A stretch of DNA of 32,776 bases from Bacillota bacterium (GTDB lineage Bacteria > Bacillota > UBA994). The stretch lies in NCBI GenBank assembly GCA_009773495.1, contig WSXW01000019.1, forward strand, positions 1-32,776, in the 5' to 3' direction. The notes under the pieces are model-generated. The model had not been told where the DNA came from, made no database searches, and worked only from the letters and a program-made list of their open reading frames with translations. Position numbers and translations under genes: made by a program. Below are positions 438 through 29,397 of the stretch, in pieces. Within the stretch, counting starts at the first letter, position 1, and every line of letters starts with the position of its first letter.

Positions 438-556
438 AAGGGTCAACTGAGGACGGAACTGGCAGCCGTCGCTCCGTGCAAGCGGTTAAGAGATGCAGGA
501 AGGTCACCCTGCCCTTGACTCTTCAACACTAGTCCGCAGCTTTGGCTGCGGGCTTT
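438..556 (+). ncRNA. Candidate structured RNA with intrinsic terminator
   Basis: A closing stem, AAGGGTCAA (438-446) with TTGACTCTT (515-523), encloses three possible hairpins. These are GACGG/CCGTC (452-456/466-470), CGCT/AGCG with a 7-base loop (470-473/481-484), and GCAGG/CCTGC (495-499/508-512). This is followed at 534-556 by a GC-rich hairpin and CTTTTGTC, a typical intrinsic terminator. The layout resembles a small RNA or a riboswitch, but I do not recognise the class and no co-directional gene follows within 370 bases. The stems were found by eye, without any energy calculation or covariation, and hairpins of this size also arise by chance. Confidence 0.3.
534..556 (+). terminator. Intrinsic terminator
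   Basis: CCGCAGC-TTT-GGCTGCGG followed by GCTTTTGTC. It is oriented for plus-strand transcription, although the only candidate transcript upstream is the putative structured RNA. Confidence 0.6.
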
Positions 557-9308: not shown

Positions 9309-9355
9309 CCTCCCACATGCCATACAATGCATAGACGCATTGTATGGTTGGGAGG
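9309..9355 (+). promoter_or_regulatory. Hairpin that pairs with the ytaF ribosome binding site
   Basis: CCTCCCA (9309-9315) can pair with TGGGAGG (9349-9355), which is the ytaF Shine-Dalgarno. Inside this, CCATACAATGC (9320-9330) and GCATTGTATGG (9337-9347) form a perfect 11-bp stem with a 6-base loop. The ATG of ytaF is 7 bases beyond. The folded form should limit translation initiation. There is no T-run, so it is not a terminator. Confidence 0.6.
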
Positions 9356-9362
9356 TACATTA

Positions 9363-9992
9363 ATGGAGTGGGTGACAATTTTCGCCCTAGCGCTTACTGT
9401 GAGCCTAGACGGGTTTGCGGCCGGAGTTGCGTATGGAACAAGAAAAATTAAACTGCCGGTCTTGGCAATATGCCTAATCAGTATAACCTCGGCTGTGACC
9501 ATGTACATATCAATGTCCATTGGTAGCGTGCTCCGCGACATAATCCCCGAGCAAGTTGCTAGCATTCTTGGTGCGGTGCTCCTTATATCGCTTGGAGCCT
9601 ATTTCGTTCAGCAGCAGTGCAAGTCTCCTAGCAAAGTATCTGAGGCAGAAAGGGACATTCTGCACTTTCGGATAGCATCCATGGGATTGGTTATTCGGGT
9701 ATGGCACGACCCCTTACTTGCAGATAGTGACAAGTCAGGTAGTATTAACTCTGGTGAGGCAATCGTGCTAGGCATAGCCTTGGCTCTCGATGCTTTTGGT
9801 TCAGGTCTTGGGGCTGCCATGACTGGACTACCACCGTTAACAACTGCCATGAGCATTGGTCTCTCCAAATTCATCCTCGTAAACCTTGGGTTGTCTGCTG
9901 GGGGGGCATTAGCGAGTGTAATATCGCCCAAGAGTACGTCTTTACTCCCGGGTCTGTTACTAATAGTTTTGGGAGTAGGGCATTTGTTGTAA
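9363..9992 (+). CDS. ytaF: YtaF, MntP-family sporulation membrane protein
   Basis: This membrane protein of 209 residues has about six hydrophobic helices in two halves, each opening with the family's LxLDxF/A signature (ALTVSLDGFAAGVAYG at the start and IALALDAFGSGLGAAMTG in the second half). Between the halves lies DSDKSGSINSGEA, an Asp-rich loop like a calcium site and typical of YtaF. The protein is a distant relative of the MntP manganese exporter, and YtaF itself is linked to sporulation. Its transported substrate is not established. The ATG at 9363 is chosen for GGGAGG at 9350-9355; earlier in-frame ATGs lie in the hairpin. Gene order mutM-ytaF-coaE matches Bacillus. Confidence 0.9.
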   Translation: MEWVTIFALALTVSLDGFAAGVAYGTRKIKLPVLAICLISITSAVTMYISMSIGSVLRDIIPEQVASILGAVLLISLGAYFVQQQCKSPSKVSEAERDILHFRIASMGLVIRVWHDPLLADSDKSGSINSGEAIVLGIALALDAFGSGLGAAMTGLPPLTTAMSIGLSKFILVNLGLSAGGALASVISPKSTSLLPGLLLIVLGVGHLL

Positions 9993-27387: not shown

Positions 27388-27900
27388 ATGCGGAGTAAGT
27401 CTTTTATCATAGGAGCTGTTGTCGGGCTGGTTCTCTTAGGATCGGCCTTTACCTTCTATTCCTATGTCTTGGCGCCGTCGCAGCACGCCGAATCTAGGCA
27501 GGTGACCTTGTACTTCGCCAACTCTCAAGTGACACAGGTAGCCCCCGAGAAACGAGTGCTTTCTGTTGAGGTGACCCCTGAGGCTATAGTCTTTGAACTA
27601 ATAAAAGGCCCGCAGACTGCGGACCTTTTCCCTACCATTCCTCAAGGCACACGACTTTTATCGGTGAAAGTCGCAGACCGTATCGCCTACGTGAACTTCT
27701 CACGTGAGGCCAAAGATAATCACAGCGGGGGTAGTGCAGCCGAGCTCATGTTGGTCTACTCAGTTGTAGCATCTTTAACAGAGCTGCCGGAGGTCGCAGA
27801 ATTGCAGTTCCTGTTAGAGGGGGTTATAGAACCCTCGATTTGGGGTCATATGAATACAGACCTCCCCATACCCCCCGACGATAACTTTATCGCCAGGTAA
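27388..27900 (+). CDS. GerMN-domain protein
   Basis: This 170-residue protein has one N-terminal membrane helix (about 6-29). The GerMN domain follows (about 38-160), with TLYFANSQ, the AIVFELIKGPQ segment, LLSVKVADRIAYVNFS and a final LEGVIEPSIWGHMNTDLPI. GerMN domains occur in GerM of Bacillus and related envelope proteins of sporulation and germination. There is no lipobox Cys, unlike B. subtilis GerM, so it is anchored by the helix. GGAGGTG lies 7 bases before the ATG. Its end overlaps the convergent permease gene by 14 bases. Confidence 0.85.
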   Translation: MRSKSFIIGAVVGLVLLGSAFTFYSYVLAPSQHAESRQVTLYFANSQVTQVAPEKRVLSVEVTPEAIVFELIKGPQTADLFPTIPQGTRLLSVKVADRIAYVNFSREAKDNHSGGSAAELMLVYSVVASLTELPEVAELQFLLEGVIEPSIWGHMNTDLPIPPDDNFIAR

Positions 27901-29149
27901 ACCACAGAAACATAGTGCCTAACGTAACGGCGGCGATTGTGACCGGAAATCCTATTTTAAAGAATTCCATAAACGATACCTTGTACCCCTGTCTTTTTAA
28001 CACGCCCACAGCGACTACGTTGGCAGAAGCTCCGATGGGAGTAATATTGCCGCCTAGGCTCGTGCTGAGAACTAATGCAAACATAAATAGCAATGGGTTT
28101 ACCCCCATGCGTTCAGCTATCAGTTGCGAGACGGGAAGCATGGCGATAGTGTACGGGATATTGTCCACAAAGGCAGAAATGACTACCGATGCAACAATGA
28201 TCAAAATATATGCGGTTAAGACCGATGCCCCCGCAAACTCAGTCATCAGGTTGGCGACAGAGGCCACTGCACCGGAGACGGTTAGACTACTTATAAGCAC
28301 AAACAGCCCGGCCAGTAAAAAGAACGTTTGCCAGTCTAGTTTTGCGAGCTCCATTTGAAAGAGTTTGCGCCGATGGTTCCACGCTAGAGCGAGTACACCA
28401 AAAATAGTAGTGACTAAGCCTGGTAAAGTCTCAGGTCTGTTGGGGATAAAAGATGAGCTGGCAAGAGCTATTACGAGAAAAACAATGAGCATTGTAGGTG
28501 TCCAGGTTGCGACTTTGGGCGCTTCTCTTTTGCTTATCTTACCGCGTGCGCCTCTAAATATAAACCAGAGGATTGCTGCGGCTGCAATTCCCCCAATCTG
28601 GACCGCAAAGAAAATTCCTAAGCGTCCGTTCATGAAAAAGAAGTCCATAAATGTCATGCGGGCCGCAGTGGCCAGCAGAATACTAGGTGAGTCACCAATC
28701 ATGGTAGATACACCCTGTAGATTGGCCGACACGGCGACTGCGAGTAGCACAGGTACGGGCGAGACCTTGATCCGCCGGGCTGTCTCTATGGCTAAGGGGG
28801 CAACAATAAAGACGGTGGCTACGTTTTCAATAAACGCTGAGAGAAAGCCAGCAAAAGCCGTTATGGCCAACAGGGCAAAAGTAGCGCTGCCGGTGGCGTT
28901 GACCATGCGCGTGGCCATATAGGCTGGCGCTCCAGAGAGCACAAAAAACTCAGCCAATACCATAGTGCCAAAAAGAATTCCTAAAACATTCCAATTAAGT
29001 GCTTGCCAGGCATCGAGGGGAGAGATAACTCGCAGTGCAAGGAGAATAATTGAGGCCCCCCAGACGAATATCAAGGCCCTGTCGCGGTTAACTATGAGTA
29101 GCAAGTACGTGATACCAAACACGAGTACAGCAATGGATTGGTTACTCAA
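27887..29149 (-). CDS. SLC13/ArsB-NhaD-type permease under a Mn2+ riboswitch
   Basis: This 420-residue membrane protein has about 11-12 hydrophobic helices in two repeats, with the superfamily motifs GFLSAFIENVATVFIVAPLA and SAFVDNIPYTIAMLPVSQ, plus GVSTMIGDSPSILLA and GGNITPIGASANVVAVG. It belongs to the ion transporter group containing SLC13, ArsB and NhaD. The substrate is not proven, but a yybP-ykoY riboswitch just upstream suggests a role in manganese export or tolerance. The TTG at 29149 is chosen because GGGGGG sits 8 bases upstream; reading further upstream runs through the riboswitch terminator, so it is not coding. Confidence 0.9.
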   Translation of the reverse strand: MSNQSIAVLVFGITYLLLIVNRDRALIFVWGASIILLALRVISPLDAWQALNWNVLGILFGTMVLAEFFVLSGAPAYMATRMVNATGSATFALLAITAFAGFLSAFIENVATVFIVAPLAIETARRIKVSPVPVLLAVAVSANLQGVSTMIGDSPSILLATAARMTFMDFFFMNGRLGIFFAVQIGGIAAAAILWFIFRGARGKISKREAPKVATWTPTMLIVFLVIALASSSFIPNRPETLPGLVTTIFGVLALAWNHRRKLFQMELAKLDWQTFFLLAGLFVLISSLTVSGAVASVANLMTEFAGASVLTAYILIIVASVVISAFVDNIPYTIAMLPVSQLIAERMGVNPLLFMFALVLSTSLGGNITPIGASANVVAVGVLKRQGYKVSFMEFFKIGFPVTIAAVTLGTMFLWFTWR

Positions 29150-29173
29150 CAATAACACCCCCCTGTAGTTTGA

Positions 29174-29212
29174 CCAAAAAAATAAAAGACCTCTGCCAAA
29201 ACGGCAGAGGTC
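29174..29212 (-). terminator. Riboswitch expression platform: intrinsic terminator
   Basis: On the minus strand GACCTCTGCC-GTTTT-GGCAGAGGTC is followed by a T-rich run (TTTTATTTTTTT). The left arm GACCTC is shared with the last part of the riboswitch aptamer, so metal binding can free the gene from termination. Confidence 0.9.
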
Positions 29213-29297
29213 TTGCTTCAAAGCTAGACTTTGTGCACAGCCGGCGTGCAGGGCACGCGTGATGACGACTTGTGCAAGGTAAGCTACTCCCCTCAAA
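29205..29297 (-). ncRNA. yybP-ykoY manganese riboswitch
   Basis: The minus strand reads GAGGGGAGTAGC at the 5' end and AGCAAGACCTC at the 3' end, the two hallmarks of the yybP-ykoY aptamer, which pair through GAGG/CCTC. Between them are the GCACA/TGTGC stem with the family's AGTCGTCA and CGCCGGC loop-side strands, a GCGTGC/GCACGC hairpin, and a CAAAG/CTTTG hairpin. This alignment follows the Lactococcus lactis form of the motif closely. Such RNAs bind Mn2+ and usually switch on genes for metal export. The shared GACCTC arm gives an antitermination mechanism. Confidence 0.93.
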
Positions 29298-29304
29298 CGT
29301 CTTA

Positions 29305-29333
29305 AGTGTAGCAGAAGGCACTTGTTAGCACAA
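29305..29333 (-). promoter_or_regulatory. Candidate promoter of the riboswitch transcript
   Basis: On the minus strand TTGTGC (29328-29333) and TACACT (29305-29310) are 17 bases apart, ending just before the aptamer. Confidence 0.6.
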
Positions 29334-29368: not shown

Positions 29369-29397
29369 TTGACAACCTTACACCTCTTTAGGATAAT
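29369..29397 (+). promoter_or_regulatory. Sigma-A promoter of the MurA-like gene
   Basis: TTGACA (29369-29374) and GATAAT (29392-29397) with a 17-base spacer, 33 bases before the ATG. It is divergent from the riboswitch promoter. Confidence 0.75.

Follow-up and report, generated by a model that had tools for sequence, protein, structure and literature searches.

The analysed window is a stretch of 32,776 nt in which murA runs divergently from position 29397 and a leader RNA sits between murA and the gene of a membrane permease encoded on the minus strand. The features of the leader and of the permease gene are collected in Table 1. A longer ORF of 469 aa starting at 29296 was discarded as an artefact, as its start falls inside the aptamer and it is not the gene. 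A sequence-only reading of the locus had placed a Mn2+ riboswitch of the yybP-ykoY class at 29174-29297, in front of a permease of the ion transporter superfamily. The conserved ends that it named, GGGGAGTAGC and AGCAAGACCTC, were found at that place on the minus strand together with the terminator, and the class assignment was upheld by a covariance model, the sequence core and covariation (see below). A terminator scan recovered the T-tailed terminator, whose stem shares the 3′ arm of P1 as the reading had proposed. Regarding the limits, the end at 29297 was correct, while the aptamer proper stops at 29205 and the terminator tail reaches to 29176. Elsewhere in the window, near a tRNA-Leu, positions 442-519 (+) match the skipping-rope RNA (RF02924, 55.8 bits versus a gathering score of 36.7), which to our knowledge is known only as an uncharacterised motif.

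Table 1. Features of the leader RNA and of the permease gene in the window.
Feature	Position	Strand	Remarks
Promoter-like pair TTGTGC-17-TACACT	29305..29333	-	Weak; read from the sequence just ahead of the aptamer; below promoter-scan threshold, suggestive only
yybP-ykoY aptamer	29205..29297	-	Three-way-junction form without P2; R1 45.2 bits, E 2.4e-8; covariation
GAGGGGAGTAGC	29283..29294	-	P1.1 5′ arm (GAGG, 29294-29291), L1 core, P1.2 5′ arm (GC, 29284-29283)
P3 arm	29234..29276	-	P3.1 TGCACAAGTCG/CGGCTGTGCA; P3.2 GCGTGC/GCACGC (29258-29253/29249-29244)
L3 loop UCAUCAC	29259..29265	-	A29263 occupies the alignment column of the invariant A that contacts Mn (A41 in L. lactis)
P4 hairpin CAAAG-UCUAG-CUUUG	29218..29234	-	
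AGCAAGACCTC	29207..29217	-	P1.2 3′ arm, L1 3′ side, P1.1 3′ arm (CCTC); common to the terminator
Intrinsic terminator and T-rich tail	29176..29214	-	Stem 29214-29186, 12-13 bp; found by scan; predicted to exclude P1.1
Ribosome-binding site GGGGGG	29158..29163	-	Ahead of the TTG start
Permease gene	27887..29149	-	420 aa; PF03600 (CitMHS); ion-transporter-superfamily fold; TTG start at 29149

The Rfam model of the class, RF00080, scored 13.6 bits at 29154-29304 against a gathering score of 45. This site was the top RF00080 place of the genome (E 0.15); a second one (C51, E 0.33) was rejected as coding-like and devoid of the core. Taken alone, such a score amounts to the lack of a significant covariance-model match, which the sequence-only reading had named as evidence against a riboswitch. 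We scanned 299 genomes of the phylum and found RF00080 matches with E<=0.01 in 58 of them, 7 of which rose above the 45-bit cut-off, so that this cut-off fails to separate members from non-members here and hides many likely true members in Bacillota. The model has 177 positions, with a long 3′ extension aligned through terminators, and the low score of the leader turns out to reflect this extension together with the weakness of the cut-off. The sub-threshold score was therefore rejected as counter-evidence, given that the cut-off misses most clear matches of the phylum. Because the RF00080 test was too strict in this setting, we built a covariance model, R1, from 26 canonical Mn riboswitches detected through RF00080 in other families of the phylum, excluding the family of the window and using a secondary structure written by hand after the known architecture. 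R1 matched a single place in the window, the complete aptamer of Table 1 (genome-wide E 1.9e-6), and since the model holds none of the element's own kin, this match assigns the leader to the class independently of them. The window also carries an MntP/YtaF-like gene (PF02659, Mntp) at 9327-9992 (+), between mutM/fpg-like and coaE-like genes; with a single R1 place in the window, no Mn riboswitch was found ahead of it.

The aptamer folds in the order P1.1 (GAGG/CCUC), L1, P1.2 (GC/GC), P3.1, L3, P3.2 and P4 around a three-arm junction, and contains both the L1 core (GGGAGUA ... AGAC) and the L3 core (UC..CA) with the Mn-contacting A. GGGAGTA was invariant in 31 canonical elements, as were the TC..CA columns of L3 in the canonical set. 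A29263 aligned with A41 of the L. lactis and A48 of the X. oryzae riboswitch, adenosines whose N7 contacts Mn2+ (PMC6754395). L060, a clear member of the class (RF00080 E 7.8e-8), has the same L3 and the same GTCGTCATCACG as the window aptamer, which agrees with both L050 and L068 in GAGGGGAGTAGC/GCAAGACCTC. The P2 stem, and with it a four-way junction, was absent from the family of the window and present in an element of a related family (G011, ATGG/CCAT), in L015 and in most Clostridia elements. Canonical members L035, L039, L046, L047 and L054 likewise do without P2, indicating that this stem does not define the class and that its absence is ordinary variation. The three-way-junction form does lend something to the idea that the ligand has shifted or broadened to Ca2+ or another divalent metal, which the permease would then handle: a Streptococcus member of this form has been reported as a Ca2+ binder (PMC9495176), and the riboswitch class binds other divalent metals too (PMC11477304). 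However, the L1 and L3 cores are unchanged and include the adenosine that contacts Mn, the L3 of the window aptamer is identical to that of the canonical L060, and several canonical relatives ahead of GDT1 or TerC genes also lack P2, and we regard a change of ligand as quite improbable.

We then compared pairing in 28 aligned permease-linked elements, two of which, in L257, come from one locus. In this alignment, which was fitted to R1 and is thus biased toward its structure, 87.8% of the cells were paired and the covariation score was 0.606, versus 33-42% and 0.06-0.15 when the partners were slid. Pairing of P1, P3 and P4 was conserved with compensatory changes, P4 being the weakest stem (72% of cells paired). 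In addition, the 127-nt leader folded 4.3 sd better than its shuffles. An ordinary terminator that resembles an aptamer by chance, and that came to lie between murA and the permease gene by accident, would account for the RF00080 score under the cut-off, but it is contradicted by the R1 match (E 2.4e-8), the strong covariation, the presence of the element in every family member and its recurrence elsewhere, and is hardly credible. By sequence core, structure and covariation, the leader RNA is a member of the known Mn2+ riboswitch class.

Folding calculations indicate that P1 and the terminator exclude each other. The minimum free energy of the full leader was -50.1 kcal/mol with the terminator and -35.8 kcal/mol with P1 enforced; once the terminator was removed, the P1-closed form came within 2 kcal/mol of the optimum. 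We infer that the leader works by antitermination in the source organism with Mn2+ as its ligand, that is, as a transcriptional ON switch of the kind described for the yybP-ykoY class. With too little Mn2+, the terminator would form and the transcript would stop; Mn2+ docked between L1 and L3 would hold P1 (GAGG/CCTC) closed, and the closed P1 would take the 5′ arm of the terminator, allowing expression of the permease.

The element was kept in 7 out of 7 other genomes of the family and in G011, from a related family of the same class, with R1 scores of 40-55 bits. In all these relatives it lies directly 5′ of the orthologous permease gene and the P1 arm is used again in the terminator that comes behind it; GGAGGTG-like ribosome-binding sites occupy the same place, and the start codons are TTG or ATG. 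The source genome contains a second R1 riboswitch, located ahead of a GDT1/UPF0016 gene, and a further riboswitch was also found in G002, another genome of the window's family.

The accepted Mn exporters comprise MntP, CDF, P-type ATPase, UPF0016 and TerC proteins (reviewed in PMC9334652). We examined which genes follow other riboswitches of this class in the phylum sample. Among 114 first genes, which were called mechanically and include a few wrong frames, there were 35 TerC, 28 GDT1, 20 P-type ATPases and 10 Na/Ca exchangers; the remainder were of various other kinds, and PF03600 was present in none of the 114. A PF03600 permease is not a typical target of the class and, as the sequence-only reading had it, stands outside the better-known exporters of the regulon. 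Odd first genes behind Mn riboswitches (L130, L139, L153, L167, L138, L042, L099, L100 and L108) encoded the oxaloacetate decarboxylase beta subunit, LemA, M48 peptidase, NfeD and DUF5685.

The count of 0/114 first suggested an oddity of one family, a view that was reversed when the search was made from the permease side. Eighty named loci were picked by similarity of the permease protein alone, and 17 of them gave R1 matches. All 18 matches lay on the strand of the permease, and 17 of the 18 were directly 5′ of it, ahead of its tandem copy or at the start of the operon that contains it. One of these 17 loci belongs to the window's family, 14 have the riboswitch directly ahead of the permease or its tandem copy, including loci of Faecalibacterium, where two permease genes stand in tandem, and of Butyrivibrio proteoclasticus, Christensenella and Solobacterium, and two are operon heads (L213:561-649 and L257:519-610), in which a Na/Pi cotransporter-like gene with a PhoU domain (PF02690, PF01895) precedes the permease. 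In L257 the permease is flanked by two riboswitches, the second of which stands ahead of a P-type cation ATPase gene right behind the permease. Behind the riboswitch-permease-permease cluster of Faecalibacterium lies a gene whose product combines DHH/DHHA2, CBS and DRTGG domains and resembles Mn-dependent family II pyrophosphatases (L211:3996-5645).

The association was also found in evenly drawn samples. A close permease occurred in 15 of 150 Lachnospiraceae genomes, with a riboswitch ahead in 3 of the 15, and in 12 of 148 genomes of the Faecalibacterium family (Oscillospiraceae), with a riboswitch in 4 of the 12; together, 7 of the 27 permease-bearing genomes had the riboswitch. In the latter family, 84 of the 148 genomes carry at least one riboswitch, at about one per genome, and by our estimate about one permease in 2,000 would have a riboswitch neighbour by chance. 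On a tree of 110 permease proteins, the riboswitch label changed at least 12 times on well supported branches, implying many gains or losses of the riboswitch inside a single clade of permeases. Few of the approximately 130 riboswitches listed for the Faecalibacterium family stand ahead of the permease, which is thus a minority target, and this may explain the absence of an earlier assignment. Our literature search found no link between the yybP-ykoY riboswitch and CitMHS, ArsB, NhaD or SLC13, although the two founding studies of 2015 might list PF03600 in their gene tables. Most permease relatives, including those of most permease-bearing genomes in both samples, have no riboswitch ahead, which implies other control or another substrate there. 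The survey proposed in the sequence-only reading thus found the same riboswitch ahead of this clade in several other families, and strengthens its suggestion that the permease may be a manganese exporter or a Mn-responsive transporter. Recurrence and the repeated changes on the tree make it a recurrent member of the Mn regulon and a good candidate Mn2+ exporter.

As for the protein, it belongs to CitMHS (PF03600, 181 bits versus a Pfam gathering score of 31.9), and its AlphaFold model (pLDDT 88.5) matched the structures of Pho90, NaS1, ArsB and INDY, in agreement with the superfamily named at the outset. It falls outside ArsB, for which the NCBIfam models gave 51.6, 38.8 and 37.4 bits versus cut-offs of 457, 760 and 415, and outside DASS/SLC13, for which TIGR00785 gave 74.4 versus 198.6 and neither hairpin tip showed an SNT motif. 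At both tips the SNT of DASS is replaced by acidic-Asn pairs, E109-N110 and D329-N330, and these acidic residues would be more compatible with a cation than with an anion or As(OH)3. The pairs are also found in riboswitch-free relatives. Residue markers of riboswitch-controlled permeases were dropped: E109 and GDSPS track the family of the window rather than the presence of the riboswitch, with D and GDATS in their place in L015.

Taken together, we consider it likely that the leader is a Mn2+ ON switch and that the permease exports Mn2+. The transported ion and its direction are our inference: the permease would be an elevator-type protein of the ion transporter superfamily, most likely removing Mn2+ as a cation antiporter coupled to H+ or Na+, and would work alongside the GDT1 protein that this genome encodes behind its second riboswitch. 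That second riboswitch supports a regulon reading, as does the fact that other riboswitches of the phylum stand mostly ahead of cation exporters. As a counterpoint, the substrates of proteins related in fold are anions or neutral As(OH)3. The leader could also be a genuine Mn2+ sensor with a permease that relieves Mn stress indirectly, either by exporting an anion that chelates Mn (citrate, phosphate) or a complex of metal and anion, or by restoring the balance of pH or ions through Na+/H+ antiport. The Pfam family is indeed named for citrate-metal transporters, the fold is common to dicarboxylate, phosphate and sulfate carriers, the riboswitch-headed operons of L213 and L257 pair the permease with a Na/Pi cotransporter-like gene, and two riboswitches are followed by OAD_beta, a subunit of a Na+-pumping decarboxylase. 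Yet the permease lacks the SNT motif, through which DASS proteins bind Na+ and carboxylate, and the genes of the regulon are mostly cation exporters; we therefore find indirect relief unlikely.

Extending Mn2+ export to the whole clade calls for more caution, and we lean only slightly towards the view that this PF03600 clade is an unrecognised family of Mn2+ exporters with an elevator fold, switched on by Mn2+ riboswitches both in the family of the window and, through recurrent gain or loss, in Lachnospiraceae, Oscillospiraceae, Christensenellaceae and Erysipelotrichaceae. None of the accepted Mn exporter families has this fold, and if the proposal is true, a metal cation would join the anions and As(OH)3 for which the elevator fold is known. 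The recurring riboswitch suggests a direct and testable function for an uncharacterised permease of gut and other anaerobes, one that annotation can easily mistake for a citrate or arsenite transporter.

Compared with yybP-ykoY riboswitches (RF00080) such as those of L. lactis yoaB, X. oryzae, E. coli mntP/alx and S. pneumoniae mgtA, the window element has the same GGGGAGUAGC and GCAAGACC cores, the same UCA in L3 with the Mn-contacting A, the P1, P3 and P4 stems and a terminator platform suited to an ON switch; it differs in lacking P2, as some other members do, in scoring below the Rfam cut-off and in preceding a PF03600 permease gene. MntP, TerC, UPF0016/GDT1, P-type ATPase and CDF proteins, several of them under the same riboswitch class, belong to families unrelated to the permease. 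Its best NCBIfam match was the magnetosome transporter MamN, of the same superfamily (84.7 bits versus a cut-off of 500); no magnetosome context was seen. ArsB of L. ferriphilum (structure 10tp) has the same ion-transporter fold (TM 0.72). In the alignment with ArsB (PMC13381914), N110 and N330 of the permease correspond to the substrate-contacting N111 and N337, and D153 falls at or near D148, whereas at the positions of E109 and D329 the ArsB residues are A110 and N336. The DASS/SLC13 carriers VcINDY, NaS1 and Pho90 also have the same fold and inverted repeats, but their SNT motifs become (E/D)NV and DNI in the permease, in which E109 and D329 take the place of the serines of the VcINDY motifs.
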